This document shows, piece after piece, positions 1-41,727 of a stretch of 64,000 bases of DNA (its first letter is position 1; the number at the start of each line of letters is the position of its first letter). A model generated the notes under the pieces. That model did no database searches. It was given only the letters and a program-made list of their open reading frames with translations, and was not told the DNA's origin. The stretch is from assembly GCF_014695725.1 (NCBI RefSeq), contig NZ_JACJOU010000013.1, positions 248,001 to 312,000 on the forward strand. Direction: 5' to 3'. A program made the translations under genes and the position numbers. This DNA comes from Microcoleus sp. FACHB-672. Lineage in GTDB: Bacteria > Cyanobacteriota > Cyanobacteriia > Cyanobacteriales > Oscillatoriaceae.

Positions 1-135
1 ACTTCACCCACGCTATAAGCTTGCAATCATATTTCTAAAAAACGTTATAGCCAAGCAATTATAAATTTTAATCTCCTTTAGTAATTATATTAAATTTCAA
101 GTTGACGGTGTAGTTAAAGACGATGTTGTCTGGTT

Positions 136-226
136 GTTTCAATCCCTGATAAAGATTCAAGTGAATTGCAAGCTGCATCAATCCCCTGTGTTTCAATCCC
201 TATCAGGGATTCAAGTGAATTGCAAG
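136..226 (-). CRISPR. Orphan pair of CRISPR-type repeats with a short spacer
   Basis: Two 37-base repeats lie at 136-172 and 190-226, separated by only 17 bases. Read on the minus strand both end in ATTGAAAC, the usual 3' tag of many cyanobacterial CRISPR repeats, and share the start CTTGCAATTCACTTGAATC. They differ only in the centre (GATAAAGAT against ATCAGGGAT on the plus strand). The spacer is about half the normal length. No further repeat and no cas gene was seen nearby. This looks like the relic of an array, or a mini-array whose spacer was cut down by deletion. Confidence 0.6.
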
Positions 227-413
227 TGCCGGATATAAGCTTAGACCCGATTTTATCCCCCCTCTCTGGCAAACACCGACCCCTCCGCGCCACCGGCTTA
301 ACCAAAAAAATCCGATTAAATCTGTTTAAATCTGTAAAAACCTTTCTCGCCTTTCCCAGTCATTCACAAAGAACTTGGCCAGAAGCATAGAGTATAGTAT
401 ACTCAACCGGCAC

Positions 414-488
414 TCATGCTAGATGCCGGCTATCACCGCCCCTACAAGCGGGAAATATCACTCAAAACTTGAGGGAAATCTAGCATGA
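414..488. repeat. Ten-base perfect inverted repeat upstream of the giant gene
   Basis: TCATGCTAGA at 414-423 is exactly mirrored by TCTAGCATGA at 479-488, with 55 bases between. A smaller hairpin (CTCAAAACTTGAG, about 461-473) sits inside. The pair ends 66 bases before the ATG at 555, so it could be an operator or a leader structure for that gene. This is inference from position only. Confidence 0.35.
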
Positions 489-554
489 TAGAAAGTGACA
501 GCCGGGGTTCCGGGAGTTTAAATCTAGCTGACGCGCGTTCTAGCCAGGGGTTCT

Positions 555-3500
555 ATGGTGAGTTCTCATCTGGATCGAATTCAAGAACTGATCGCTGATA
601 TTGACGGAGTGCTGCGGCAGCCGAGTTCGCGCTTGCCGTGGATGGGAGAAACTGCAAAAGACTCGCGTCGGGTTCTAGAGCGAACTCGCAGCTATCTGCT
701 AGAACTGCGGCAACAAATCGCTGCCAATGACTTCATGGCTCAAACCGCCATCGCACCGCCGGCAACAAACATCCAGCCGGTTCAAAGTTCCCCAACACCA
801 CAAAGCACCTCCGATCCGGTTTCCATTGAACAGGCACTACAAGCTGTTGTGCAAGACATGATGGGGTTACGCGCTAACCTTATGCAGCCCTTGCAGGCAG
901 ACGTAGAAGCCTTGCAGCGCGAACGCAACACCCTGCTGAAAGAAATCCGGCAACTGGACGCACAGCGACAGCAGCAGCACACCCTCGCCCAGCAGTCGGC
1001 TTACCAGCAGCAAATCATTTCAGAATTTTTGCAAGTGTTGATGGGGCGTGTACACGAGAGTTTGACTCAGCAAGTCAGCCAGACGCTCAATAATATCGAA
1101 CACCAGCTTTTAAATTATGAATCGGTCGCCGGCTACCAAAACCCTGCCTTAGAAGGAGCGGGTGAACCTGAGCCACGTCCCTACATCCCCGTATGGGACC
1201 CATCCGCCGCATACCGGCAAGTTTCTGCCGCACCCCTTCACCCACGCCAACGCCTAGAGCAAATGCAGGCGCTCCAGCAAAAAAGCGACGAGCTATTAAT
1301 GACGCTTGATTCTACTATCAGTGTCGTCTTTGAAGCCCTGCTGCGGAATGTTCACGGCTATGAAGAGTCTTTGTCCACCGGACTGGAAAAGATGCACAAC
1401 TTGGGGCAGCAGGGTGAAACCATGTTTACTCACTTGGTTAATCACCTGGCGCTAAAGTTAGGACAAGAAGCAGCCGGCTTTTTGCAATCACCAACGCCGG
1501 TAGCGAATCTAGAACCGGCATCGGGCGAAATTCCCTCCCCAACAGCTTCACAAGCGAAATTGCCGGCCAGCGAGGCTAAGAAAAAGCGCGAGCTGTCTCC
1601 ACCACCGGCACAAGCAAAAGCAACTGAAGCACAAGCCCAGACTAAAGCAAAACGACGTAGCGTTGAATCCACCGCAACACCGGCACAGAAAGGGGGCAAA
1701 AGCGGACAAGATCAAAACCCTGCAGGGGGAAGTCAAGGATCGGTTGAGCGGGAAAGCCCAGTAGAGTTAGAGTCGGCAGCCCTCTCTTTTGTAGAACCAG
1801 CGCCCAGCGTCCCAGACAATCAGGCAGTTATCGAAGAATTGCTGATGGATTTGGAAGTGGGATCTGCCAACTCCACCCAGTCACTCGATGCCCTCTTACC
1901 GACAACAGCAATTAATTCTGAAGCTACAGAAACAGAGCAAGAAGATTTTGATGCTTGGGTGGATCTGTTGGGCGCAGAATGGCAACAAGAAACAGCCGCG
2001 CCCACCCCTGAAACTTCCCCAACAGAAGCTGGGTTAACTGCTGGGGAAGTTTCAGCCGGCATGGAGCAACAGCTCAACGATCTGTATGACAATTTATTTG
2101 GGGTTGATGAAGAAGCAGTGCCGGCCCAATCGGCAGAGGCAGCCCCAGCCCCGTCAGAAAGTGCCGGCTTAAATTTATTTGAAGAAGCATTGTTTGAAGG
2201 CTTTACAGAAACGGCTGAGGGAAGCATTGAGACATCCTTACCCGCTCAAGCCACCGAGCCGGCAGCGCAGTCACTGGAAGAATTTCTATTTTTTGAGGAC
2301 GAACCGGCAGCGGATCAAAGCCCTGAGAATCTTGAAGATTTATTTGAAGAAAAACCAGCAGAGGTCAATCTCAACACCTCACAAGTTGTTGCCGGATCGG
2401 CATCTGTGACGGAGGTTGCTGCAAATGGGGCAGACAATTCAGATGTGAAGGAAACGCCCTCGGACTTATTCCCAGAACCGGCAGCCCCCTTAGCCGCTAA
2501 ACAACCCCCAGATACAACACCTCGCAAAGCTAAAAAAGAGCCGGCAGCGCAAACCAGTGACGAACCCGACGCTTTAAGTCTTTTTGATGACTGGGCGGCA
2601 GACAGCTACATCCCAGCCTCGCCCGATGAAAATCTGCTGCCAACTTCTATAGAGGAAGAAGATCCAGATCGTGATCTTGCCGTCAAGATCACAACTCTAC
2701 AGCAACTCCAGAATGATCTTTTCAGCCTGGAAGGTTTTGACGATTTTAGTGCCGAGGCGCTTGATGTGCCGGCAGATTTAGACGTGGCTGTGAATGAGCG
2801 GACATCTGAGAAAGCAGGATCGCCCCTCGAACCGACACCCACGCCCCCGGAACGCCTGCCCCAACAAAATTGGGAAAGCACCACCCTTGGGCAGTGGGCG
2901 GAAGAAATAGAAGTTTCCCAAGCGCCGGCACCGACAAGCAGCCCAAATTTAGGGGCATCACCGGATGAGCTGAGTGTTTCGGACTTGGCAGCAACACCTG
3001 AAGAAGAAGCACTTTTAGCGAGTGTAGATGATTGGTTTGCCGAGTTGGCCGGTGAGAGCGAGGCTCTACCGGCAGACTGGCCAAACTCTAATCCTCCCCT
3101 AGCGCCCAGAAACACGCCAAACATGACCCTGGAAGAGGCTTTTGCCAGCATGAGTTCGGCAACCGCCTCGCCGGCACCCCAAGATTTATTTGAGTCTACC
3201 GATAGCACCCCAAAGGCAATCAGCAGCGCAGCGTCTGCTGAGGATGCCGGCAGCTCAACTCTTGACGATTTGTTTGCCAGCATGACTGAGGAACCCTCGG
3301 CACCCGTTCAGGGAGAGGCACCCGATTTATTTGAGCCACAAAATTGGAATCCCGCTCCCACCGGCACCGTTTCCCCCGACGACATGGGCACCTCAACCCT
3401 GGATGATCTGTTTGCCAGCTTGAGTGAGGATTTTCCGGTGTCCTCAGAGCCGAGTGTCACGGAGACGGAAGCATTCCCGACGCAGGATCTAGGCACCACA

Positions 3501-5627
3501 ACCCTTGACAATCTGTTGACAAGTCCCTCTGAAGATTTCCCACCGTCCCGTGAGTCTGAGAAACCACGCCCAGTAGGCAGTTTGACAGATATGCTGGCGG
3601 ATGAAGCCCTGCCACCTGTGGAACCGGCCCCCCCAGATTCCAGCAGTGAAAAAAAAAAGGATTTAAAGCCGGCAAACCTCCTGCAAGTCTTTGAGTTTGC
3701 CCCGCCTGAACCGGCTGGCATTGCAGAAAATCGGCTTGCTGAAACGCAGGAAGTAATTCAACCCGTTGCAAAAGCGCAACCGCCGGCGATTGTGCTTGAA
3801 GAGGAGCCAGGGGAAAAAATCTGGTATCTTGGCATTGATTTTGGCTCAACAGGACTATCGGCAGCGCTGCTGAACCGTCAAAGCTGTGAAGTTTATCCGG
3901 TTTACTGGATGGCAACGGAACCAGCCGAATCTGGAGTGCCGGTGGAACGTTTGTTTCGCTTATCCACGGCTGTCAGCCGGCCAGATATGAGTGCTGAGTG
4001 GGCTGTGGCAACTGAGAACAGCACGGGGATGCAGCTAGAGGACTTTAAGCCTTTTTTGAAGCTAGGCATGACCGGCACAAAAATTGACCAAGACGCCCTG
4101 AGTCACTCAGCGCTGCCGTGGGAGCCGGTTCTACAGTGGTCTGCCGGCGAAGAAATTCCTCTAAGCTGGCTGCAACAAGCGCTGGCAGCGCTGCTGGCAA
4201 CGCTTAATCCCCTCAAGAATCCTCCAGAAACTGGTTTATTAACGGGTGCTGCCGGTCTGGAGTCGGCAACGTTTCAGTCGGCGCTGACTCAGTTGGCGGG
4301 GGTGTTTTTAAATCAGCCGGCGCAGTGGCCCGATAGCTACAGTTTTAATTTACGAGAGGCTGTGCTGGGTGCTGGGTTGGTGCGTCGCGCAGAGCAAGTT
4401 GTTGTGGTTGAGGATGCGATCGCAACGGTGCTGTCGGTTGTGCGGGGCGCTGCCGGTGAAACGTTAAGCGTGCCCAGCAGTGTTTCTCAAAAACTTGATC
4501 TGTTTAATGCGGACTCGTTGGGAGAGACGCTGATTTTAAGTGCCGGTGCGGTGACATCGGAATTGGCGCTGGTCAATTTGCCGGCCAATCTGCAAGATTT
4601 AACCTACAGTGACTTTAACTTTCTCAGTTGTCCTTATGCCGGTGATGCAATTGACCAAGATATTATTTGCCAATTGCTATTAAAAAGTGAACCGAGGGGC
4701 AAAACAGCTTTTACGTTTCCCGCTTTACAAGATTTACCCCAAGCCGGTCAGCCGGATCTGCACAAACGCTATCAATTGCAGCAGCTTTTGCACGGTTCAG
4801 CGGAGGGAAAGGCGCTTTTAGAAGCGGCGAAGCATTTGAAAGTGATTTTGCAACACCAAGATCGCTTTAATCTGGAGCTTGGAAACCAGCGCTGGACTTG
4901 CACTCGCAAGGAATTGGAAAGCCGCGTGTTTGTTCCGTTTGTTCAGCGCTTGAATCGAGAGCTGAATGTCCTGCTGAGCCAGACCGGCATTCAGCCGGTG
5001 GCCATCGACCAAGCGATTTGTACGGGTGCCACGGCTTCTCTGCCGGCGATCGCTCGCTGGTTACGGCAAAAACTTCCGAATGCCACGATTATTCAAGATA
5101 CTTATCAAGATCGCCGTCCGCCGGCTTGCAGTCGCATCGCCTGCGGTTTGGCTGCGTTGCCTCTCCACCCTCAAGTTTTTGATATCCACCGGCAGCAGTA
5201 TAGCGATTTCTTTTTACTAAGAGAACTTCTGAGTGCGTTTCCGAACTCTGCCTGTAATGTTGCGGAGATTGTGCGGTTACTCGAACGCAGAGGAATTAAT
5301 ACTCGTGCTTGTCAGGCGCGTATTTTTACGATCCTTGAGGGTGCGCTGCCTGCCGGTTTATTGCCAAGTGAGATCGATGCAGTGCTGCTGAATGAGGAGT
5401 GCCGGCAAGATCCTGATTTCCTCGGACTTAATGCCGCTCCCCTTTTCTATAAGGAAGATAATCAAACTTATCGTCCGAACCCTCAGCAATTTCAACGACT
5501 GCGAACCTATTTCAATCAGTTGGTGGCCGGCACCTATCAGCAATTAGAGGAGCCATTTACGGTGGATTTGGGGCAGCGTTTCCAAAAATCTGCATCGCTG
5601 TTGGACGTAAGTGCTCAAGACTGGTGA
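555..5627 (+). CDS. Giant acidic protein with C-terminal actin/Hsp70-fold ATPase-like domain
   Basis: This protein has 1690 residues and no named homologue that I recognise. Residues 1 to about 320 are Gln-rich and look helical or coiled-coil. Residues of about 320-1080 are low-complexity, acidic and rich in Ala, Pro and Ser, with many copies of a short motif of the form D/E-x-L-F, including near-repeats such as STLDDLFASM. From about 1090 the sequence becomes globular: GIDFGSTG at 1093-1100 matches the phosphate-1 loop of the actin/Hsp70/sugar-kinase superfamily, and CTGATASLPAIA near 1490 resembles the adenosine loop. About 130 mostly helical residues follow. No signal peptide or membrane segment is seen, so it should be cytoplasmic. 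ATP binding is inferred from the fold motifs. The ATG at 555 follows a weak AGGGG. The gene appears monocistronic and a hairpin terminator follows it. It could be a chaperone, a filament-forming protein or a scaffold. Confidence 0.75.
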   Translation: MVSSHLDRIQELIADIDGVLRQPSSRLPWMGETAKDSRRVLERTRSYLLELRQQIAANDFMAQTAIAPPATNIQPVQSSPTPQSTSDPVSIEQALQAVVQDMMGLRANLMQPLQADVEALQRERNTLLKEIRQLDAQRQQQHTLAQQSAYQQQIISEFLQVLMGRVHESLTQQVSQTLNNIEHQLLNYESVAGYQNPALEGAGEPEPRPYIPVWDPSAAYRQVSAAPLHPRQRLEQMQALQQKSDELLMTLDSTISVVFEALLRNVHGYEESLSTGLEKMHNLGQQGETMFTHLVNHLALKLGQEAAGFLQSPTPVANLEPASGEIPSPTASQAKLPASEAKKKRELSPPPAQAKATEAQAQTKAKRRSVESTATPAQKGGKSGQDQNPAGGSQGSVERESPVELESAALSFVEPAPSVPDNQAVIEELLMDLEVGSANSTQSLDALLPTTAINSEATETEQEDFDAWVDLLGAEWQQETAAPTPETSPTEAGLTAGEVSAGMEQQLNDLYDNLFGVDEEAVPAQSAEAAPAPSESAGLNLFEEALFEGFTETAEGSIETSLPAQATEPAAQSLEEFLFFEDEPAADQSPENLEDLFEEKPAEVNLNTSQVVAGSASVTEVAANGADNSDVKETPSDLFPEPAAPLAAKQPPDTTPRKAKKEPAAQTSDEPDALSLFDDWAADSYIPASPDENLLPTSIEEEDPDRDLAVKITTLQQLQNDLFSLEGFDDFSAEALDVPADLDVAVNERTSEKAGSPLEPTPTPPERLPQQNWESTTLGQWAEEIEVSQAPAPTSSPNLGASPDELSVSDLAATPEEEALLASVDDWFAELAGESEALPADWPNSNPPLAPRNTPNMTLEEAFASMSSATASPAPQDLFESTDSTPKAISSAASAEDAGSSTLDDLFASMTEEPSAPVQGEAPDLFEPQNWNPAPTGTVSPDDMGTSTLDDLFASLSEDFPVSSEPSVTETEAFPTQDLGTTTLDNLLTSPSEDFPPSRESEKPRPVGSLTDMLADEALPPVEPAPPDSSSEKKKDLKPANLLQVFEFAPPEPAGIAENRLAETQEVIQPVAKAQPPAIVLEEEPGEKIWYLGIDFGSTGLSAALLNRQSCEVYPVYWMATEPAESGVPVERLFRLSTAVSRPDMSAEWAVATENSTGMQLEDFKPFLKLGMTGTKIDQDALSHSALPWEPVLQWSAGEEIPLSWLQQALAALLATLNPLKNPPETGLLTGAAGLESATFQSALTQLAGVFLNQPAQWPDSYSFNLREAVLGAGLVRRAEQVVVVEDAIATVLSVVRGAAGETLSVPSSVSQKLDLFNADSLGETLILSAGAVTSELALVNLPANLQDLTYSDFNFLSCPYAGDAIDQDIICQLLLKSEPRGKTAFTFPALQDLPQAGQPDLHKRYQLQQLLHGSAEGKALLEAAKHLKVILQHQDRFNLELGNQRWTCTRKELESRVFVPFVQRLNRELNVLLSQTGIQPVAIDQAICTGATASLPAIARWLRQKLPNATIIQDTYQDRRPPACSRIACGLAALPLHPQVFDIHRQQYSDFFLLRELLSAFPNSACNVAEIVRLLERRGINTRACQARIFTILEGALPAGLLPSEIDAVLLNEECRQDPDFLGLNAAPLFYKEDNQTYRPNPQQFQRLRTYFNQLVAGTYQQLEEPFTVDLGQRFQKSASLLDVSAQDW

Positions 5628-5650
5628 GCTGTTACCGCCGGCTATAGGGA

Positions 5651-5680
5651 CGGGGTTGTCTCAACCCCGCTCAATTTTTC
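5651..5680 (+). terminator. Rho-independent terminator after the giant gene
   Basis: CGGGGTTG (5651-5658) and CAACCCCG (5662-5669) form a perfect 8-bp stem with a TCT loop. They are followed by CTCAATTTTTC, 23 bases after the stop codon. Confidence 0.7.
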
Positions 5681-5824
5681 TCATAACTAGCATCAAATCT
5701 GATTGATTAGAACTGATTCATCAGAAACCGCAGGCTTCCTTGACAAGAATCTTGAAAGTTTTGCTCAACGGTTAAAAACCCGATTTACCCGCAAAATCAG
5801 CTTTTTTTGCCCCTGAACCCTCAC

Positions 5825-5856
5825 CCCCTCACCCTATAACCCCCTCACCCTATAAC
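5825..5856. repeat. Tandem 16-base repeat, two copies
   Basis: CCCCTCACCCTATAAC occurs twice head to tail (5825-5840 and 5841-5856), inside a C-rich stretch of the 5628-6229 spacer. The rest of the spacer holds the terminator and nothing else I recognise. A short minus-strand reading frame over 5834-6025 looks like translated repeat. Confidence 0.6.
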
Positions 5857-6229
5857 CCTTTTTATTCTTAAAGGAGGAGGGAGTAATTGGCAATTTGGCA
5901 ACAACAGGATTTGCTAGTTCCTGTAGGATAATCCTCAATCGTTCAGAAAAGAACCCAAGCGGAAAACTAACCTCTTTACTCCGACTTCTTTCCGGTAATT
6001 TCCTGAATTTCTTAGAGAAAAACATGAGAACTTTACAAAACCGTTGCTAATTCAAAGATTTCGTAAATCTCAGTATTTATCACAGGGATTTTATCTTGGA
6101 AGTCCCTTAATATATAGCCTAAGAACACCTGATTTCTATACAAGTTGTAGCCCAGCCGTGATTACTACTTCTAATTTCTCCACTTCCCTATCGAGCCATC
6201 CGTCTAGGTGTAACTCTACGAATGAGCTG

Positions 6230-6856
6230 ATGTCGTATGAGCAAGAGTTGCATCCATCCGTAACGAATAAAGCCAAACGCCTGCTTGATATTTTGGGGGC
6301 TTTAGTTGGTTTAGCAATCGCTATTGTCTTTGCCATTCCAGTTGCATTTTTAATGCAGCTAGACAATCCAGGCCCGATACTTTACAGCCAAATTCGTTGC
6401 GGTTATAAAGGGAAAAAATTCCGAATTTGGAAGTTTCGTTCAATGGTTGTAGGAGCAGATCGGCTCAAGCATTTAGTGAATAACGAAGCGAATGGGCATA
6501 TTTTTAAAAATGAGAATGACCCCCGCATCACCCATGTGGGCCGGTTCCTCAGACGTACTAGCTTAGATGAGCTACCGCAATTCTGGAACGTTTTGATCGG
6601 TGATATGAGTTTGGTAGGAACTAGACCCCCGACTCCCGACGAAGTTGAGCGGTATGAAAGCCATCACTGGCAACGCCTGAATGTTAAACCTGGTATAACC
6701 GGCGAATGGCAAGCGAACGGTCGCTCCTGTGTCAAAGATTTTGAAGAGATTGTTCGGATGGATCTGAATTACCAACGGAAGTGGTCAATTGTTTATGACA
6801 TCAACTTGATATTAAAGACAATTGCAGTTGTTTTGAATAAGAGTGGCGCTTGCTAA
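6230..6856 (+). CDS. Bacterial sugar transferase (PglC/WcaJ-type phosphoglycosyl transferase)
   Basis: Members of this family move a sugar-1-phosphate from a nucleotide sugar to undecaprenyl phosphate at the inner membrane, the first step of exopolysaccharide or O-antigen synthesis. One hydrophobic segment (residues of about 18-42, the re-entrant anchor) is followed by DNPGPILYSQ, KFRSM, the DE dyad in SLDELPQ and GDMSLVGTRPP, all family hallmarks. It is the short form, without the N-terminal multi-helix domain of WcaJ. I chose the ATG at 6230 (208 residues). An in-frame TTG at 6044 would add 62 residues that do not look like this family. No other polysaccharide gene is adjacent; the glycan cluster lies 30 kb away. 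Confidence 0.88.
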   Translation: MSYEQELHPSVTNKAKRLLDILGALVGLAIAIVFAIPVAFLMQLDNPGPILYSQIRCGYKGKKFRIWKFRSMVVGADRLKHLVNNEANGHIFKNENDPRITHVGRFLRRTSLDELPQFWNVLIGDMSLVGTRPPTPDEVERYESHHWQRLNVKPGITGEWQANGRSCVKDFEEIVRMDLNYQRKWSIVYDINLILKTIAVVLNKSGAC

Positions 6857-6900
6857 GCACAGCAAAGAGTAATCGCAAGGCTTGTATATAGTTCTCGTTT

Positions 6901-6924
6901 AACCTGCGCTTGCAGGTTTTTTTA
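6901..6924 (+). terminator. Rho-independent terminator after the sugar transferase
   Basis: AACCTGC (6901-6907) pairs with GCAGGTT (6912-6918) around a GCTT loop, and is directly followed by TTTTT. It lies 45 bases after the stop. Confidence 0.75.
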
Positions 6925-7083
6925 TTAAGTGCTGAGTTGTCAGTAAAAGTCTATTTGGGATGCTTTTGTATAAAAGTATTGGGCGGGCAGGAAGCTTTCT
7001 TCTCAAACTTTTACCAGCATCTCTAAAATTTAAACTCCAAAATTGATATAAGCTGGTAGCCAGTCGCCGTGTTTTAAAAATTA

Positions 7084-7626
7084 ATGACGCTTGCTAGCTG
7101 GATTACTTTATCTCGTCTTTTAGGAGTTCCCTTTCTCCTTTATTTGCTGCACAACCCAACGCCAGCACACCGATGGATTGCTTTAACCATTTTTCTGGTG
7201 GCTGCCGGCACAGATTGGCTAGATGGGTATGTCGCTCGAAAATTCAACCAAATTACTGATCTGGGTAAGTTTCTTGATCCCTTGGTGGATAAGTTGCTTG
7301 TACTTGCGCCTTTGCTGGCATTTATAGAACTTAATTGGGTGCCGGCATGGGGCGTATTTTTAATTTTGGCGCGGGAATTAACGATAGCCGGTTGGCGGGT
7401 TAATCAAAAAACGATTGCCGGTGCCAATATTTGGGGCAAGCTCAAAACTGTGAGCCAAATTCTGGCAATCGCGCTTTTGCTTGCACCAACGCCTGATAGC
7501 TGGAAAACCCCTAACCTCATTGCTTTTTGGGTTTCCGTCGCTTTCACTTTAATTTCTGGCGCGATTTATTTGTTCCCCCCAAAAAGCAATCAGCCATCTG
7601 CTGCCGGCAGTACCTTAGACAGCTGA
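7084..7626 (+). CDS. pgsA: CDP-diacylglycerol--glycerol-3-phosphate 3-phosphatidyltransferase
   Basis: This is the committed step of phosphatidylglycerol synthesis: it makes phosphatidylglycerol phosphate from CDP-diacylglycerol and glycerol-3-phosphate in the membrane. Phosphatidylglycerol is essential for cyanobacterial photosystems. The CDP-alcohol phosphatidyltransferase signature is complete: D44, D47-G48, A51-R52, G61, D65, D69. The protein has 180 residues, the usual length, and is strongly hydrophobic with several membrane helices. The ATG at 7084 has no clear Shine-Dalgarno sequence. It converges with the membrane-protein gene ending at 7696, and a weak AAAGATT/AATCTTT hairpin lies between them at 7679-7694. 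Confidence 0.93.
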   Translation: MTLASWITLSRLLGVPFLLYLLHNPTPAHRWIALTIFLVAAGTDWLDGYVARKFNQITDLGKFLDPLVDKLLVLAPLLAFIELNWVPAWGVFLILARELTIAGWRVNQKTIAGANIWGKLKTVSQILAIALLLAPTPDSWKTPNLIAFWVSVAFTLISGAIYLFPPKSNQPSAAGSTLDS

Positions 7627-7695
7627 TGACTGATTGCTGATGCAAATTTCTGACTGTGTAGTTGTGTCGATTGAAACTAAAGATTTTAATCTTTG

Positions 7696-8310
7696 TTAGA
7701 CGGCACGCACGCCCGGTTTTCTCGCTCCCACAGAAGCGCCAATCATTGAGGCGACTAACCCTAACAAAGAGCCGAAGATGAAGGACCAAGCTGCTTTGGC
7801 TGTGTTACCGGCAATGTTGCGAGCTTCAGCGTTGTTGATATTGGGGGCGTTGTTGGGTACGTTAGCACCACCGGACTGTTGCGCCTGGTTAATGATTTCT
7901 CCAGCATTCGAGGCGACAACGCCGAAGGTTCCCGATACTCCACTCGCCAGCAACCAAGAACTGATTGCTAAAGTGGTTGCCCAAAGAATGGCACCATTTA
8001 ACAGAGCGGTTTTACTGTTCATCGGGCCACAAGTGCGGGCCATCACCCAACCGCCAAGAAATAAAGCAATCAGCAAACTGATGATTGCCCAAATGCCCAC
8101 GCCCAAGGCAGCATCACCGGCATCCGCTCCAGACGCGCCGGCACCCAGCCCAATTGCAGCGCCTAAAGCACTTAAAACCAGTTGGGTGCTAATCGCAATG
8201 ACAATTCCCGCAAAGATCGGACCCCATCTGACGCGATCGTGGTAGTCAACGACCGGATTTACAACAACAGATTCACCTACTCTATTTTCTGTGCGCTCTG
8301 AGTATGACAT
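7696..8310 (-). CDS. Four-helix membrane protein of unknown function
   Basis: The protein has 204 residues with a short polar N-terminus. The sequence RVRWGPIFAGIV leads into the first of four hydrophobic segments (residues of about 30-60, 75-100, 110-132 and 180-200), each rich in Gly and Ala. Proteins of this appearance are often annotated as PhnA-like or stress-associated membrane proteins; I do not recognise a defined activity. I chose the ATG at 8310 because MSYSERTENR begins a normal cytoplasmic tail. An upstream start at 8355 would add 15 unlikely residues. It is transcribed away from the PRC-barrel/DUF2382 gene at 9055 and shares a 744-base upstream region with it, which suggests joint stress control. 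Confidence 0.7.
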   Translation of the reverse strand: MSYSERTENRVGESVVVNPVVDYHDRVRWGPIFAGIVIAISTQLVLSALGAAIGLGAGASGADAGDAALGVGIWAIISLLIALFLGGWVMARTCGPMNSKTALLNGAILWATTLAISSWLLASGVSGTFGVVASNAGEIINQAQQSGGANVPNNAPNINNAEARNIAGNTAKAAWSFIFGSLLGLVASMIGASVGARKPGVRAV

Positions 8311-9054
8311 AAACTCTTTACCCCATTTCACTACTGCTATATTGTCTATTTCCAATTAGAGCAATCTTATTGGATACTTAATTTTAGGTATAATTTCAGT
8401 CTGGTATATCTATCGCTAGATAGAAGAAGAAGTTGAACAGCCTGCCTATCTAAGGGCGCTTTCTTCAATCAAATATCTACCGTTAGATAGACTTATATTG
8501 GAGTTTTGTATTGAATTCTTGCGGAGTTATTGATACAAAGCTTATTGAATTAATGAAATTTACGCTACGCTTATGCCCGAATCCTTTCTCAAAGATTTTT
8601 AATTAAAAACTCAAAGCTACCTTGGCGAGATTTAAGCATTTCTGAGCAAAATAGCAATCAGTCAAAGTATAAAGCCGTTAATTTGAAAGACTTTTCAATA
8701 GCAATTTAGCGCTTTGAACGATTGAGCAGTGAATCTTTTTAATGTTTCTGTATCTGAATTTGTGCCTTGTCGACAAAAAAAGTGTTTGAGATGTGTTCTT
8801 TTATCGGCTCAGGGAAAAATTGCCAGCTAGGATATAAGAGAAAGCTTTTACATAATTGAAGGTCTGTTCATCTATCAACTTTAAGCAGAGAAGTCAATCT
8901 ATCACAAGATTGAAAATAATTTATAAAATTTTTTCTTCACTGTTCTTATTATTTCACCGGCACTGATGAATCAGCCCTAAGAAGGAAGGCTCATGAGGGA
9001 GAGCCAGATAAATTAAGTGCAGAGGTTAAAGCATAAAAAGAGGAAGATAAGAGA
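8311..9054. promoter_or_regulatory. Divergent spacer with two near-identical palindromic elements
   Basis: This AT-rich region separates the membrane-protein gene from the PRC-barrel/DUF2382 gene. Two 18-base elements with dyad symmetry lie at 8406-8423 (ATATCTATCGCTAGATAG) and 8473-8490 (ATATCTACCGTTAGATAG), differing at two positions and 67 bases apart. They could be regulator binding sites. I see no RNA gene or convincing reading frame in the rest. Confidence 0.4.
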
Positions 9055-10005
9055 ATGCCACTTTACAAACTAGAGGATTTTAATCCTAGCTATCGCGAAC
9101 AAGCTTTTGATGGCGAAGACATTAAAGGGCTGGATGTTTATGCCGGCAGCTCAAATGAGAAAATTGGTAAGATTCATGACGCCTTAGTAGATGAAATGGG
9201 GCGCTTCCGGTATCTGGTTATTGATACCGGCTTTTGGATTTTTGGCAAAAAGGTGCTGCTGCCAGTCGGTCGTTGCCGTGTGGATGTTAACGCCCAACGG
9301 GTTTATGCGATGGGGCTGGTGAGCAAAGAGCAAGCGGAGCACTTGCCTGAGTACGATGAAAGCATGACCGTTGATTACGCTTACGAAGAGCGAGTGCGCG
9401 GTGTCTACCGGACTCCCAGCGTAGAAGGATCATTACCTGTAGAAACATCAGCGCAGCTGGAAGCACCGCGAGTTAGATCCGTTGCCACTCCAGTTACTTC
9501 AGAACAAACTGTTGCCAATCCCTTCGGTTCAGCTCCTGATGAAGCCACGCTTTACAACTATGATCGAGAACCCACGCTTTACCAGATGAACGAGCAAGAT
9601 CATCAAAAGCTGCGGCTGTACGAAGAACGGCTGGTTGCAAATAAAAGTCGGCATCGGGCGGGTGCGGTAGAAATTGGCAAGCGCGTTGAAACCGAAGTCG
9701 CACGTGCTGCCGTGCCGGTGGAGAAAGATCGAGTTGTTATTGAGCGAACACAGCTTAATGCTGGACAGGCCGTGAGTCCGGGTAGCGTTGATTTCCATGA
9801 AGGCGAAGTCGCACGAGTTGAACTTTACGAAGAAGTTGCTGATATCAAAAAGCAAGCTTTTGTGCGCGAGGAAGTCAATATTAGGAAAGAAACTGAACGG
9901 GACATGGTACAGGCTGAGGAAGTCCTGCGTCGCGAAGAATTAGAGGTGCACACGGAAGGGAATCCGGTTGTGGAGCGAAATAATCGGCCCAGAACTGACC
10001 GTTAA
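9055..10005 (+). CDS. PRC-barrel and DUF2382 (YsnF/AvaK-type) stress protein
   Basis: The protein has 316 residues. Residues of about 20-95 form a PRC-barrel (GLDVYAGSSNEKIGKIHDAL, then RFRYLVIDTGFW). A linker follows, and residues of about 185-300 match the charged DUF2382 domain, seen in Bacillus YsnF and in the akinete marker AvaK of Anabaena. Such proteins are associated with general stress or resting cells; their biochemistry is not established. The ATG has a purine-rich AGGAAG ribosome site. A strong terminator follows at 10037. The shared upstream region with the divergent membrane protein supports a common stress response. Confidence 0.85.
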   Translation: MPLYKLEDFNPSYREQAFDGEDIKGLDVYAGSSNEKIGKIHDALVDEMGRFRYLVIDTGFWIFGKKVLLPVGRCRVDVNAQRVYAMGLVSKEQAEHLPEYDESMTVDYAYEERVRGVYRTPSVEGSLPVETSAQLEAPRVRSVATPVTSEQTVANPFGSAPDEATLYNYDREPTLYQMNEQDHQKLRLYEERLVANKSRHRAGAVEIGKRVETEVARAAVPVEKDRVVIERTQLNAGQAVSPGSVDFHEGEVARVELYEEVADIKKQAFVREEVNIRKETERDMVQAEEVLRREELEVHTEGNPVVERNNRPRTDR

Positions 10006-10036
10006 GTTACGTTTTTGAGGTTTTGAATTGAGTTGT

Positions 10037-10080
10037 GATGCCGGCATTAAATAACTGCCGGCATCATTGCTCAATTTTTG
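10037..10080 (+). terminator. Terminator after the DUF2382 gene
   Basis: GATGCCGGCA (10037-10046) and TGCCGGCATC (10056-10065) form a perfect 10-bp stem with a 9-base loop, followed after a short gap by AATTTTTGTTTTT. The stem is built from the GCCGGC motif that is so common in this genome. Confidence 0.75.
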
Positions 10081-10402
10081 TTTTTCCTCACCATTCAGTT
10101 GGGATGAATGCGCTAAGTAGGGGAATACAATCGCACAGTATGATGGAAAGTTTTCTAAAAAGTAGCCAATTTGGCAACACAGCTTTGTTAAAGTGGCTTT
10201 TAATAAGTTTACCAAGCTCATGTTGATTGAGGGTGCCTTACTTAGCGCTAAAATTCTGGGAAAAAACTAGGAAACCCTACGCCAATTAAATATTAAATAA
10301 ATGCTTTTTAATGGTAAGGTATTCTAAAAATTCTCATTCTCAAAGCTTTCACGAAGCTCGTTTGCTACATAATGACAACTTGACATTTAAGGAGGATGTT
10401 TG
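10081..10402. other. Spacer before the SLH-protein gene
   Basis: There is no gene here. GCGCTAAGTA at 10110-10119 is mirrored by TACTTAGCGC at 10239-10248, too far apart for a simple hairpin. The ribosome site AAGGAGG (10389-10395) lies 7 bases before the ATG at 10403 and decides that start over an out-of-frame ATG at 10396 and an in-frame TTG at 10400. Confidence 0.4.
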
Positions 10403-11434
10403 ATGAATAAAGGATTTGCGGGTATATCAGCTGGCGCATTAGTGCTAGCAATTGGGATAATAGGCGAGGCAACGATAGCTTTGGTCTCGACCGCTCAAGT
10501 TTCTGGAGACAATACATTTCGTGACGTCAAACCAGATTACTGGGCGACTCCATTTATTCAAGCCTTAGCGAATAAAGGCATGGTTGCGGGTTATAGGGAT
10601 GGAACGTTCAAACCAGAGAAAGCAGTAGATCGCGATGAGTTTGCGGCAATGATCCGCCAAGCGTTCGAGGAAAAGCCGGTGAGAAGTATTCCCAGTGGAA
10701 GTGCTTTTAAAGATGTTCCTGAAGGCAACTGGGCAGCGCCTCCTATTGAAGAAGCTTACGAAACAGGCTTTATGGAAGGCACCCCCGATAATAAGTTTCT
10801 TCCGCAAAAGCCGCTTTCTAGAACTGAAGCGTTAGTTGCTTTAATGAAGGGACTGGATATGTCCTCTAAGCAACCAGAAACGACCGCTAAAGCAACGCCA
10901 GCTCCAATTTCAGCGGCAACGGCAAATCCAGCCTCTACTCCTCAAAAAAATCAACGTCGATTCATTGGGAACCCCTTGCTGTTTCCAATCGCATCGACTG
11001 CAATGATGACACCGTTTTTACAGATAGCTTCGCAAAAGCCGATTCAGCAAGCTCTGACTGCTGTTTCGTCGCAGAAGCCGGCTCAGAAAGCTGTGAGTAC
11101 CGCTCCAGCAGCAGTTGTCAGTAAGCCAAAGGCAAATGCTAAGCTGGCAGCCGCGGATGTGCTTAAGTTGTATTACAAAGATGCAGGGAAAATCCCTAAA
11201 AGTGCGGTTAATGATGTAGCTGCTGCGACTCAAGCCAATATAGTTGTCAACTATCCAGATGCAAAGGTTTTTAATCCTGATAAGCTGCTAAATCGGGCGG
11301 CGGCTGCGGCAATCATTCATCAAGCTTTAGTTAATCAAGGTAAGTTGGAAGCTCTTCCTAAGAATGTTGCGGCTTCTAAATACATTGTTGATTCTAGTGC
11401 TAAAAATAACCAAGCTGCCCAAGTTCCTAAGTAA
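10403..11434 (+). CDS. Secreted S-layer homology (SLH) domain protein
   Basis: The protein has 343 residues. A hydrophobic N-terminus (residues of about 5-30) should act as a signal peptide. SLH repeat 1 is at about 38-90 (FRDVKPDYWATPFIQALANK, then GTFKP and RDEFAAMI). SLH repeat 2 is at about 98-150 (FKDVPEGNWAAPPIEEAYET). A Pro/Gln/Ala-rich linker follows, then a degenerate third SLH-like segment at about 250-315. SLH domains bind cell-wall-linked polymers, so the protein should sit in the envelope. It lacks the porin barrel of the larger cyanobacterial SLH-OprB proteins. The strong AAGGAGG ribosome site suggests high expression. Confidence 0.85.
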   Translation: MNKGFAGISAGALVLAIGIIGEATIALVSTAQVSGDNTFRDVKPDYWATPFIQALANKGMVAGYRDGTFKPEKAVDRDEFAAMIRQAFEEKPVRSIPSGSAFKDVPEGNWAAPPIEEAYETGFMEGTPDNKFLPQKPLSRTEALVALMKGLDMSSKQPETTAKATPAPISAATANPASTPQKNQRRFIGNPLLFPIASTAMMTPFLQIASQKPIQQALTAVSSQKPAQKAVSTAPAAVVSKPKANAKLAAADVLKLYYKDAGKIPKSAVNDVAAATQANIVVNYPDAKVFNPDKLLNRAAAAAIIHQALVNQGKLEALPKNVAASKYIVDSSAKNNQAAQVPK

Positions 11435-11545
11435 GTTTGTCAGGGGTGTTGCTAGTCGGCACTCCGCTGAATTTGCATTGAACTCAATGATAGGCTAACC
11501 ACCGGCAACGGATTTGTAAGTTTAAGTTCCATTGCCGGTTAGCTT

Positions 11546-12481
11546 TTAAGAAGCCGAAAGAATTTCGTCGTCTGTGGAGAAATCAACTTCGGCTTTCTCG
11601 CGACCGGCTGTTAGATAATCATTTTGGAAGGAATCTTTTAAGCCGGCAATTAGCTCGTATTCTGGTTGCCAATTCAGTTCACTCATGGCTTTGTGAACAT
11701 CGGCAAAAAAGTGCTGAACGCGCATGGGGAAGGCTTTGCGTTTGCCAAAATCAAACTTTTTGGGTTCGTAATGCACCAGTTGCACCGACTCAGGTGATTT
11801 ACCGACTGCTTCTGCACAGGCACGGGCTAAACCATCAAAGGTGACATAGCGATCGCCTGAGACATTATAAATCTGTCCGATGGCTTTTTCGTTGCCGAGT
11901 ACGGCTGCCATTGCGTTGGCTAAATCTTGACAGTGACCGAATTGTGTGAAATGAGTGCCATTTCCAGGGATAGGAATAGGGCGATCCCGCACAATGCGAT
12001 CAAAAAACCAGGCTTCTAGATCGTTATAATTTTGTGGGCCGTAAATATAAGTAGGGCGAATAGAGGTAAACGGTAATCCCTGTTCTGTGAGATAGGCTTC
12101 CGTTTCATGCTTGCCTTTGTGCCGGCTTTTTGGGTCAACTGGATCGCCTTCTTTATGCGGCATTTGGTCAGATTTGAGATAGACGCCGGCGGAACTCATG
12201 TAAACAAAATGCTTCACCCGACCTTTAAATATTTCTGCGAGGGGTTGGGTATCACTCAGTTCGCGGCCATTATTATCAAAGATAGCATCAAATTCTTCTT
12301 TTTCAAGCTTTTCTTTTAGTTGTGCAGCATCTGTACGATCCCCGTGAATTTGTTGCAAACCTTCAACGGGAGCCGATTTTTTTCCGCGATTAAATAAGAC
12401 AATCTCATGTCCTTGTTTAACCAAAATTTTAGTTAAATAAACCCCGATAAACCGGGTGCCACCCATGATTAGAATTCGCAT
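11546..12481 (-). CDS. NAD-dependent epimerase/dehydratase family protein, CSP41-like
   Basis: The protein has 311 residues and an atypical short-chain dehydrogenase fold. GGTRFIGVYL at residues of about 7-16 is the dinucleotide-binding loop. RELSDTQPLAEIFKGRVKHF and YMSSAGVYLKSDQMP resemble the cyanobacterial homologues of chloroplast stem-loop binding protein CSP41, which binds and cleaves RNA in plastids. Whether this one acts on a sugar nucleotide or on RNA cannot be told from sequence. The ATG at 12481 is preceded by GAGGA; an earlier in-frame start at 12526 would add an unlikely tail. surE lies upstream on the same strand, 111 bases away, so the two may be co-transcribed. Confidence 0.85.
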   Translation of the reverse strand: MRILIMGGTRFIGVYLTKILVKQGHEIVLFNRGKKSAPVEGLQQIHGDRTDAAQLKEKLEKEEFDAIFDNNGRELSDTQPLAEIFKGRVKHFVYMSSAGVYLKSDQMPHKEGDPVDPKSRHKGKHETEAYLTEQGLPFTSIRPTYIYGPQNYNDLEAWFFDRIVRDRPIPIPGNGTHFTQFGHCQDLANAMAAVLGNEKAIGQIYNVSGDRYVTFDGLARACAEAVGKSPESVQLVHYEPKKFDFGKRKAFPMRVQHFFADVHKAMSELNWQPEYELIAGLKDSFQNDYLTAGREKAEVDFSTDDEILSAS

Positions 12482-23668: not shown

Positions 23669-25315
23669 AGAGACGTTCCAGCCAATTAGTCGTAAAGTTT
23701 TCTATAGCCTAATGTTTTGATTGTAGCCCTTTTACCGGCTCTGTAAACATTAAACGCTTGTTTAACAGCTTTTTGGGGCTGGCGACCGGATGCTAGTTAT
23801 TATATGGAATACTTTGTGTGTTGGAACGGATAAACTTTTTGGGCCGGGGGCTTTTCCTCATTTTGACTGATATCGTTAAGCTTTTGAGCAACCCTTTTTT
23901 TCCAGCTCCTAATTGCCTGATTTATCACATTACTTGCTTAGTGGCAATGTCAAAACTGCCTAATAATTTTCTCGGTTTAACTGTAACTAGCTTCCCGTCT
24001 AACATTGTGAAAGCCTATAAATAGCCCCTGCCCCTTGATGCGTATTTAAATGGGTGTGAGGGTTACATTGCAAAAATCTGCCAACTCACTTCTCACCAAG
24101 GCGCTTTTTAGCGTAACTTGAATGCTCTCTCCCTTCCCCAGTATGCTCCGGCAATTTTAATAACTTACCTTTTTGGCAGTAGATTTTTTAATCTAATCAG
24201 GAGATGTTTTGGCTTTAAGACGTTGAAGTTGCCGACAATAAGTTATTTACTCTAAAATCAAAAGTAATTTGACATTCTAAAGCTTTGCATTTTTATCTTG
24301 ACAAGCGCTAGGATTTCAGGAAAAACATTATAATAATTTTTTTAAATTCACCTTAAAAGAAAAATCTTACAGATGTTGGTAATTTCCTAAAATCACTTTA
24401 TAGAAAAACAAACCCTAAAAAAAAAGAACATTTTACCCCAATCAATTTCCATCGGCTTTTATAGCACGCATAATTCAAGCCACTTATAACCGTAAAGAGC
24501 TTATTTTTGATTCATTTATGGAATCTGGAACGATTGCTATTGCTGCGTTAATGCTATCACTTCTGGCCCTTGGCGTTGAGCTTTGCCAAGACGACTGCGA
24601 GATTACCCTAACTGACTTGAGAATTTTTTACGACAAAAGCAAATTCAGCCATCCCAATAATCTTGATTTTTAAACCGGCAATATTTGTAAAGGCGATAAT
24701 TCCCGCCATTGAGAATGCTTGATATCCGGGTGTGCTTGCTTGTGGCTGCTGGTTGCTGCTACCTAAGCAAACTTGCTGCTGAAATCCTGTAAAAAAAGAT
24801 ACCTTTCTCCAAAGTTCCTTCAATCGTTCACTGAGTGATATCATTTTCTGTTGCGGTTGCATCCCTAGGGGGGGGAATGCTCACCCAAAAGTTATAAATT
24901 CTGTTGTGGGAGACGAATTTACCGACCAATCTGAGCCTCTAAAATCTAAAATAGGAGGGCACTCTTAGTGCTTTTGGTTAGGGCACAAAATTCAAGAATG
25001 TAGCATTTTTCTGGCTGTGTGCAACACTAACAATGTAGTTAAGGCGCACGCCGGCTAGTTGAGATAACTTTTCTCGCTACAAACACCTCGTATGTCCAAT
25101 TCATGACCTTGACTGCTAAATGCTTTAAGCTCAGGACGTACTCTCACCCCAAAAATATACGGGCTATGATAACTGCAAATCCACAGACTTAAGTGTTACT
25201 CTTTGTCGCAGTAGAAGCAAAAGCTTCTGTAAAACGCTTTTGAGAAGTCAACCTGGTATAAAATTCAGCAAAAGCTAAACTCTCGTTTAGGAAAACGCTA
25301 TAAGGAGAAAGGATT
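23669..25315. other. Long gene-poor spacer between ribBA and argC
   Basis: About 1.6 kb of mostly AT-rich DNA. Two weak reading frames were considered. 24518-24673 (+) encodes 51 residues with one hydrophobic stretch (IAIAALMLSLLALGVEL) but no ribosome site. 24608-24862 (-) encodes 84 residues, also without support. No tRNA, repeat or riboswitch was recognised. A strong ribosome site (AAGGAGAAAGG) ends the region in front of argC. Confidence 0.35.
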
Positions 25316-41507: not shown

Positions 41508-41727
41508 AATTTTAGGCAATTTATTTTTTTTTATAACCGCAAATGATATAGCCCTACTCTGTGATTGGTTAAAGATCATTACCCTAAAAATCCTGTAGTA
41601 CGGGAACCTTGCTCGCTAGAAATATGACAACCGATTTATGAGTGCTATAAATAGGGATGTAGGTTTGATGTAAGTTCGTATTAAGTATAATTAAAATTTA
41701 TAAATCAGGACTTATAAGATAAATTTG

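Follow-up and report, generated by a model that had tools for sequence, protein, structure and literature searches.

A cyanobacterial gene with a SepJ-type coiled coil, a predicted Hsp70-like head and a conserved adenine run between them

What does a filamentous cyanobacterium make from a gene in which a coiled coil of the septal kind runs on, through a long acidic chain, into a putative ATP-binding domain, and does it make one protein from that gene or two? Septal proteins determine whether cyanobacterial cells form a communicating filament, and to our knowledge the cytoplasmic side of these proteins is poorly known. Here we describe such a gene in a window of 64,000 nucleotides from Microcoleus sp. 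FACHB-672, the whole stretch of DNA that was analysed; positions are those of the window, and all features named lie on its + strand. A gene combining a SepJ coiled coil with an Hsp70-like head is a concrete candidate for the septal cytoplasmic side, and it bears on whether the SepJ coiled coil is periplasmic or cytoplasmic. The reading that we prefer, at a probability of roughly 0.6, is that its products form a soluble, septum-associated scaffold of the SepJ type, in which slippage determines how many ATP-switch heads are present.

The gene, its coiled coil and its linker

The complete gene spans 555..5627, begins with ATG and encodes 1690 amino acids in frame 0, the long headed isoform, for which homologues were detected. 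A sequence-only reading of this DNA had described the same frame with a helical N-terminus, and the long predicted helices bear it out. That reading also knew no named family with such a layout; Pfam and NCBIfam indeed gave nothing above cut-off for the window protein, and Rfam gave no match in window positions 1-12000. At the level of abstracts and passages, we recognised no description of a SepJ-Hsp70 hybrid gene in the literature.

The N-terminal helical module (residues 1-312, 555..1490) is modelled with helices at residues 3-21, 28-65, 88-191 and 230-311, and since the mean pLDDT is 71 and the pTM 0.28, these are better taken as rods than as a globule. Residues ~88-306 align with the coiled-coil domain of SepJ. 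When an alignment of 53 N-terminal sequences (A3) was compared with one of SepJ-like proteins (A4), hhalign returned 99.4% with an E-value of 3.4e-21 over 181 columns; judged by sequence, this module and the coiled coil of SepJ are homologues. It is missing at nine of 80 loci (L037, L039, L041, L063, L070, L073, L085, L102 and L109) because the record ends within ~4 kb upstream. The A3 profile matches 85 genomes, 77 of them with two or more matches, some of which are pieces of one gene, and in all eight cases examined the second match was SepJ-like. HmpF was considered as the second carrier of the module and rejected: the second protein bears an EamA permease, as SepJ does. In the reverse direction, a search with the SepJ coiled-coil profile at E 0.01 found SepJ and the hybrid gene only, in 8/8 genomes.

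The two proteins thus share a homologous coiled coil followed by a variable, low-complexity linker, and they occur largely in the same genomes, but they differ in what follows. The C-terminal part of SepJ (FraG) is an EamA/DME permease, which Pfam matches at E 9e-22 to 1e-23 for three homologues, whereas the Pfam search of the window protein gave no EamA permease match, and the hybrid ends in an Hsp70-like head, has no clear membrane segment and carries an acidic linker with LYxxLF and DLF motifs. The highest 19-residue hydropathy of the window protein, 1.66, falls within the head, and outside the head it has no strongly hydrophobic stretch; the hybrid protein looks soluble and cytoplasmic. 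Passages in two papers argue that the SepJ coiled coil is periplasmic, and describe it as having no evident export signal (PMC12096826, PMC5623728). A periplasmic coiled coil in SepJ set against an apparently cytoplasmic hybrid protein is a point against the scaffold reading.

Across 386 genomes, in counts made without correction for kinship, a SepJ-like protein is present in 74 of the 76 genomes with a strong head and a strong head in 74 of the 82 with a SepJ-like protein; without four permease-only calls the figures become 73/76 and 73/78. Two genomes (G031 and G056) have a head without SepJ, and in eight with a SepJ-like protein no strong head is present. For these counts, 13 weak or partial matches were removed from 89 heads, and nine permease-only matches in frames of 309-363 aa from 91 SepJ candidates. 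Counted as SepJ-like were proteins whose permease match lay in a frame of at least 560 aa (75 genomes), those in shorter frames accompanied by a coiled-coil match of its own (G119, G166, G193), and those recognised by the permease only, in frames of 409-452 aa (G040, G048, G222, G323).

The linker (1491..3806; the head profile begins slightly further on, at 3819) was first described as an acidic, disordered chain with short hydrophobic-acidic motifs, and this description holds. Residues 313-1089 carry a net charge of -115 over 777 residues, and the pattern [DE]-x(0,1)-[LIVM]-F of the D/E-x-L-F array gives 13 matches at 10 distinct places, whereas 200 shuffles of the linker averaged 1.6 matches and none reached 13. 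Conservation of the array, which the sequence-only reading had made a test of its proposal, proved partial: the window's group and many Microcoleus- and Nodosilinea-type members show enrichment, whereas 22 members of Nostocales type, chosen by organism name, do not (median 1 match, maximum 3), and neither do several others such as L043, L044, L047, L071, L096 and L110. As far as these motif counts go, the array is confined to particular lineages, and Nostocales-type members have almost none of it. More widely spread is a [LV]YxxL[FL] site, present in 61 of the 72 linkers against a mean of 0.8 and a maximum of 3 in shuffles, whose window copy of the common LYxxLF form is LYDNLF at 2082..2099.

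The surroundings of the gene suggest another possible role, in hormogonium motility or envelope-polysaccharide export and not in junctions. Downstream lie a bacterial sugar transferase (6044..6856), whose cluster is found near 34/81 loci, and a CDP-alcohol phosphatidyltransferase of the PgsA type (7084..7626), whose cluster is found near 21/81; a divergent CRP-type regulator stands near 56/81. Part of a study in Nostoc reports that a DnaK system connects pili with polysaccharide (PMC9239167). The neighbours speak through gene order only, however, and the module is common to SepJ and to no other protein in the eight genomes searched, so we regard this role as rather unlikely.

The adenine run and its reading frames

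At the boundary of linker and head lies a run of ten adenines (3649..3658), the proposed slippage site. In the window, loss of one A brings a TAA (3664..3666) into frame two codons past the run and yields a short isoform of 1036 aa, while gain of one A leads to a stop 11 codons past the run and a product of 1046 aa. Runs of at least nine A occur at this boundary in 46 of 80 loci, with lengths of 9-11, and the length is exactly 10 in 40 of 47; for the nine loci without an N-terminal module the scan covered up to 2500 bases upstream. The background of such runs outside the gene is 0.009 per kb and strand, and there is none in the 148,782 bases that code for heads. The run is not found everywhere: 26 of the 71 loci with upstream DNA (Nodosilinea-type, several Leptolyngbya-type and part of the Nostocales-type members) have no run of eight or more, and in a second locus set 32/60 have a run of at least nine and 28/60 have none, so two products are not universal.

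Among 45 loci with at least eight A, the long product is read in frame 0 at 26, with one more A at 16 and with one A fewer at two (L036 and L042), and one locus could not be evaluated. In each of the 44 evaluable loci a single reading is long and the other two terminate within 36 codons, the alternative stops being looser in Nostocales-type members (up to 36 codons past the run) than in the window's group. The single giant reading frame first proposed is real, but the conserved A-run at the linker/head boundary makes this probably a two-product gene, and we strongly infer that both the headed and the headless isoform are made.

The run is also present at loci where the gene is split. We considered gene fission in Microcoleus, with separate upstream and downstream genes, and rejected it: all 19 split loci break at an A-run of 9-11 (L063, which has only shorter runs and no recognisable N-terminal module, was left out). 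Of the 19 downstream frames, seven lack any ATG, GTG or TTG upstream of the head, seven have GTG or TTG only and five have ATG, so independent starts are possible at some loci. In 14 chosen Microcoleus-type sequences, the A10 is invariant and the frame is flipped by one base beside it; L079 and L056, which are split by other single-base differences, fall outside this comparison. On a tree, run presence changes five times and the frame-0 product ten times, and for the short form starred branches require at least nine changes of frame-0 product (runs of eight, in L046 and L090, were coded as runs and the A7 of L054 as none). Such flips between sister strains would offer a natural experiment on slippage.

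The closest parallel in form is dnaX of Thermus thermophilus and Chlorobium, which, in the passages available to us, likewise has an A9 or A10 run with nearby stops in the other frames and a frame-0 product that is long in some species and short in others, and in which the proportion of two clamp-loader subunits is fixed by slippage (PMC5009743, PMC3711429, PMC1088944). The protein is unrelated, the isoforms of the hybrid gene are predicted ones, and slippage here would add or remove an Hsp70-like head. If so, the hybrid would be a further, chromosomal case among the bacterial genes whose A9-A10 slippage governs the proportion of two forms of one protein.

That slippage might instead be ribosomal, a -1 programmed frameshift on A_AAA_AA, is something we consider improbable, although a -1 shift is equivalent to one extra A and would give the long form in the 16 loci that need it and the short form in the 26 with a long frame 0. 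The two loci that require one base fewer do not fit. RNA folding covered two stretches on either side of the run and, compared with shuffles, 46 stretches downstream of it; over the 46 the median z is -0.02, and 43 show no structure at z -2 (the exceptions with z <= -2 being L035, L046 and L079). A run length near 10 also suits polymerase slippage, which part of one paper infers at 8-10 A in Nostoc IS elements (PMC1088944).

Still less probable is phase variation at the level of DNA, by which the run would change length in replication, cells would switch between headed and headless forms, and slippage in the transcript would be incidental. Homopolymers are known sites of phase variation, according to a passage in one paper (PMC3711429), runs of 9 to 11 A exist, and close relatives differ in frame, as where L056 (A9) and L015 (A11) stand next to A10 relatives. 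Switching by the run would, however, be expected to give varied run lengths, and the prevailing length is exactly A10 regardless of the frame-0 product, while in the 14 Microcoleus-type sequences it is a base outside a constant run that flips the frame. We give very little credence to a passive run, a conserved tri-lysine patch coded by AAA with the split frames as sequencing errors or pseudogenes: lysine is AAA in 70% of cases in neighbour genes (2678/3841), so KKK would be all A about one time in three, and the control sites are few (two and five), but runs of at least nine A stand at 32/32 KKK sites near the head, compared with 0/2 elsewhere in the gene and 0/5 in neighbour genes, the first A of the run falls in each of the three codon phases set by the upstream frame, the remaining two readings stop early, the splits recur across many assemblies (including the complete genome record L058), and the heads past the break remain aligned over their length.

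The Hsp70-like head

The C-terminal domain had been read as an actin- or Hsp70-fold ATPase joined to the motif-bearing chain, with structure prediction and a fold search of residues 1085-1690 as the check. The model of these C-terminal 606 residues is confident (pLDDT 87.7, pTM 0.90), with a best Foldseek match at E 1.6e-15 and ~15% identity to an Hsp70-type domain, and a best VIA-align match at Z 23.3 (rmsd 3.8, 365 aligned). The 50 matches listed by Foldseek and by VIA-align are Hsp70-superfamily entries; for the filament-forming actins (MreB, ParM, FtsA and FcmB) the comparison extends to these listed matches. The domain is thus modelled as an Hsp70-type nucleotide-binding domain of the actin superfamily (P0002 residues 1-456, 3807..5174), on the model, the fold matches and conservation; the combination first proposed stands, in filamentous cyanobacteria, with the domain being of Hsp70 type and not generically actin-like. 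For the window protein, a Pfam listing to E 1, whose filters drop most weak matches, contains no HSP70 family; at E 0.1, HSP70 matches 12 of 61 members (best 2.5e-5) and PilM_2 matches 38/61.

The head resembles the nucleotide-binding domain of Hsp70/DnaK in predicted fold, motif order, phosphate-1 motif, Lys81 and adenosine motif. The phosphate-1 motif GIDFGSTG (3831..3854) supplies Asp11 of P0002, which like Lys81 and Glu252 is invariant in 61/61 heads, and an adenosine-type motif, CTGATAS, follows at 5019-5039. It differs at the phosphate-2 hairpin (SAGAVTSE, 4539..4562), where a Ser occupies the place of the Hsp70 catalytic Asp. Position 245 of P0002, in this loop, is N in 38 heads, S in 17, H in three, and C, T and D in one each, so that 60/61 have no Asp there. 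A comparison with cyanobacterial DnaK by hhalign reached 57.8% only, over a partial alignment, and these equivalences therefore rest on motif order and not on coordinates. The lost phosphate-2 Asp, so placed, speaks against fast ATP turnover. The head differs further beyond the fold: the substrate-binding beta-sandwich and lid of Hsp70 are absent from the model, and modelled secondary structure and conservation point to a C-terminal helical module (P0002 456-590, 5172..5576) in their stead, with two short strands past residue 455 (547-550 and 554-557).

The suggestion of a client-loading chaperone in the Hsp70 sense thus becomes unlikely, since the model has no substrate-binding domain. More broadly, we doubt that it works as a genuine chaperone of the Hsp70 type, or polymerises like actin, with a coiled coil that serves oligomerisation only and no septal link; the fold and the three invariant residues would suit it, but the missing beta-sandwich, the lost Asp and the homology of the coiled coil to that of SepJ do not. 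FcmB, as described in part of one paper, is likewise an actin-superfamily ATPase reported only from filamentous cyanobacteria; by that description it is of ParM type, has a partner, FcmC, and forms a separate family, and we rejected it as the identity of this gene (PMC12645912).

A possible role at the septum

In the scaffold reading, RNA polymerase, or less likely the ribosome, would slip at the A10 run. The headless form would consist of the coiled coil with the acidic docking linker and stop at 1036 or 1046 aa in the window, and the headed form would read on into the ATP-binding head. The coiled-coil modules may build rods with one another, and probably with SepJ too, at septa, while the linker would recruit partners through the LYxxLF site and, in some lineages, the DLF array. 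The head, which keeps most ATP-site motifs, could act as an ATP-dependent switch of conformation or assembly, and slippage would then fix the number of heads per rod, much as it sets the dnaX subunit ratio. We infer the septal location with moderate strength and the ATP-switch mechanism of the head only weakly. A bolder version, in which rods with SepJ in the septum form a cytoplasmic, ATP-gated part of the junction and the heads, their number set by slippage, form or control an energy-responsive lid, seems to us a long shot.

Other septal proteins were compared by their descriptions in the parts of the literature available. The constituent proteins of the septal-junction cap are given as not identified in passages of a 2022 paper (PMC9722847). 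FraI, SepT and SepN, whose descriptions differ, were rejected as the hybrid gene. SepI is an improbable match for it, being reported in a passage as 521 aa, against open frames of 1189-1519 aa in the named Nostocales-type members (PMC12421839); besides this difference in length, the SepJ coiled-coil profile gave no third protein in the eight genomes. SepI (Alr3364) is nonetheless described in one passage as a coiled coil plus linker without a permease (PMC12096826), and by that description alone its layout is the layout of the headless isoform.

Gene layout and the Hsp70-like head

The open reading frame at 555-5627 on the forward strand comprises 1690 codons from an ATG start, and its product has a single match within its own 6.37 Mb genome. 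The three-region layout first described by the sequence-only reading, with a helical N-terminus, a long acidic linker and an actin/Hsp70-type C-terminus (the head), was confirmed in this frame, and its remark that the layout belongs to no named family holds, since Pfam and NCBIfam return no family name above cut-off for the window protein. The closest titled relative is a metagenome record, Microcoleus vaginatus WJT46-NPBG5, with 94% identity in the head. The highest 19-residue hydropathy is 1.66, located within the head, and values reach 1.78 at most across 52 fused relatives; we therefore read the protein as soluble.

For the head, 61 sequences were aligned (the window copy and 60 of 80 homologous loci, thinned at about 88% identity), and the structure predicted from them has a mean pLDDT of 87.7 and a pTM of 0.90. 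Foldseek gave a best E-value of 1.6e-15, the 50 matches listed being DnaK and other Hsp70-superfamily domains, and in a second structure comparison (best Z 23.3, rmsd 3.8, 365 residues) all 50 matches listed were of that superfamily, bearing out the suggested actin/Hsp70 fold. The link to Hsp70 is faint at the level of sequence: Pfam at E 0.1 found PilM_2 in 38 of the 61 heads and HSP70 in 12, and hhalign of the head against DnaK reached only 57.8%. When residues are equated with those of Hsp70 by motif order (numbered along the C-terminal 606-residue piece), Asp11 (phosphate-1), Lys81, Glu252, Asp285 and Lys345 are invariant and Glu202 is present in 54 heads, while the place of the phosphate-2 Asp is taken by Asn (38), Ser (17), His (3), Cys (1), Thr (1) and Asp (1). 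Beyond residue 455 the model holds only helices and two short strands, with no Hsp70 substrate-binding domain. Together, the conserved motifs, the replaced phosphate-2 Asp and the absence of this domain from the model suggest a head likely to bind ATP, perhaps hydrolysing it poorly, which as modelled would not be a chaperone of the Hsp70 plan.

The window's linker does carry an array of D/E-x-L-F motifs (13 matches against 1.6 expected), but the array is not general: the median is 1 match in 22 Nostocales-type linkers and 8 in the remaining 50, where counts range from 0 to 19. Of 72 linkers, 61 share a single site of consensus (D/E)-x-L-Y-x-x-L-F, where 0.8 would be expected, the exceptions being loci L035, L036, L044, L060, L065, L076, L090, L091, L092, L096 and L101.

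A SepJ-like N-terminal module

A profile built from 53 N-terminal modules was searched against 386 genomes drawn from the phylum, and it matched at least 85 of them; in at least 77 it matched more than once, some of these matches being fragments of a single gene. The second protein carrying the module, fetched in eight cases, is built of a coiled coil, a linker of low complexity and a C-terminus that is hydrophobic, and in the three given to Pfam the match was EamA (E 9e-22 to 1e-23). This is the published layout of the septal protein SepJ (FraG) of Anabaena, with 751 aa, coiled coils at 28-95 and 127-207, then a linker, and a membrane domain from 412 (PMC5623728). Profile-profile comparison of the module with the SepJ coiled coil gave 99.4% (E 3.4e-21, 181 columns), strongest in a segment of the type LDxTxxVxFxxLQxxxxxYQxxLSQxLxxMxxxxQQGE. 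Judged from these profiles, the module is homologous to the SepJ coiled coil, and the similarity is not a general coiled-coil match, because the reverse search with the SepJ profile at E 0.01 returned SepJ and the gene under study, and nothing else, in 8/8 genomes.

The head was matched at E 1e-10 in 89 of the 386 genomes, 76 of them strongly, and a SepJ-like protein was counted by hand in 82; the two occur together in 74 (Fisher p 2e-67, kinship ignored), or, without four permease-only SepJ calls, in 73 of 76 genomes with strong heads and 73 of 78 with SepJ-like proteins. A head occurs without a SepJ-like protein in genomes G031 and G056, and a SepJ-like protein without a strong head in G015, G027, G048, G087, G098, G104, G222 and G323. 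Divergent heads were seen in genomes lacking a SepJ-like call, at L029, L030 and L194 (G031, G056) and L193 (G181, G185); in some genomes the family's Hsp70-like portion may be independent of SepJ. At L189 (G015), L190 (G027), L191 (G048) and L195 (G222) the N-terminal module and linker stand without a head within the 16-18 kb retrieved, and these are natural headless versions; in G087 a degenerate head frame comes after a long N-terminal-module frame. By title, the best 80 of 317 loci come mostly from filamentous genera. Two contigs of Mastigocoleus testarum BC008 (L075 and L077) have identical heads and matching surroundings, either a duplication or an assembly artefact.

An A-run between linker and head

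In 19 loci, the fused L045 and L071 standing outside this set, the N-terminal module and head lie in different frames, and in every one of them the frame break coincides with 9 to 11 consecutive A. Many fused genes have the same run between linker and head, at 3649-3658 in the window copy. Runs of at least nine A occur in 46/80 loci, 40 of 47 being exactly 10 long, and a second, overlapping set of 60 loci (the window gene is in both, and some lineages recur) has an A-run at most 1000 bases before the head in 32. The run is not universal: among the 71 loci for which upstream DNA exists, 26 lack any run of at least 8. Outside the gene there are 18 runs (11 A, 7 T) in 1,000,325 bases, and the 148,782 bases of head coding DNA scanned contain none. 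Elsewhere, the window has A9 and T9 homopolymers at 24417-24425 and 41524-41532. Lysine composition does not explain the run, because KKK sites are written with at least nine A in 32/32 cases near the head, 0/2 elsewhere in the gene and 0/5 in neighbour genes (small controls).

Forty-five loci with a run of at least 8 were read with the run shortened by one A, unchanged, and lengthened by one A. The reading that enters the head is frame 0 in 26, one A more in 16 and one A fewer in 2; only L056, with its frame broken further upstream, could not be evaluated. All other readings stop within 36 codons of the run (for the window's group and for Microcoleus, within 1 to 11), and the window products are 1036 aa (one A removed), 1690 aa (run unchanged) and 1046 aa (one A added). 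Across 14 selected Microcoleus-type sequences the A10 and the following TAA are invariant, and one base adjoining the run sets the frame. A quick tree of 72 heads, with some long branches, implies 5 changes in run presence and 10 in the frame-0 product, of which, for the short product, at least 9 are forced by starred branches.

Proposed isoforms and gene neighbourhood

According to PMC1088944, PMC5009743 and PMC3711429, runs of about nine A cause slippage of bacterial RNA polymerase, slippage in Thermus dnaX yields about half short product from the long frame, frame 0 of Chlorobium-type dnaX encodes the short product, and Nostoc has IS elements with 8 to 10 A. The gene under study holds both arrangements in one family, and we therefore propose that slippage would yield two isoforms, one headed and one headless, the latter with the coiled coil and linker layout reported for SepI (Alr3364). 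Transcriptional slippage is compatible with 44/44 evaluable loci, and ribosomal -1 shifting with all except L036 and L042; among 46 folded stretches no general stimulating RNA structure was seen after the run (median z -0.02, three at -2 or below). The analysis argues strongly that both isoforms are made. The coiled-coil rods would assemble with SepJ at septa, a location that is reasonably likely, and the linker would recruit a partner; more tentatively, the heads would act as ATP switches, their number set by slippage. Among the papers listed by the literature searches we recognised none on the gene, its SepJ link or its A-run, and the SepI paper may mention them; the fold, the coiled coil and the slippage all belong to known kinds, and their union is new to us.

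Function can hardly be read from gene order alone. Across 81 loci, many with short flanks, and with each neighbour named from a single copy in L050 or the window, a divergent CRP-type regulator lies upstream at 56, alongside a DUF2232 protein (55) and a phosphoribosyltransferase (48), and downstream are a sugar transferase (34) and a PgsA-type enzyme (21), the only pair kept in the window. Past the divergent operon, 33/81 loci have a small conserved protein of about 125 aa (L050:3846-4217 and similar), for which Pfam gave only a sub-threshold coiled-coil match. On the window's own contig, outside the window, two large WD40-repeat proteins of 1588 and 1649 aa (L112:107-4873 and 6774-11723, on the gene's upstream side at about 0.8-12.4 kb; Pfam for the second only) have a P-loop-like motif by eye and occupy the place of the CRP-regulator operon in relatives.
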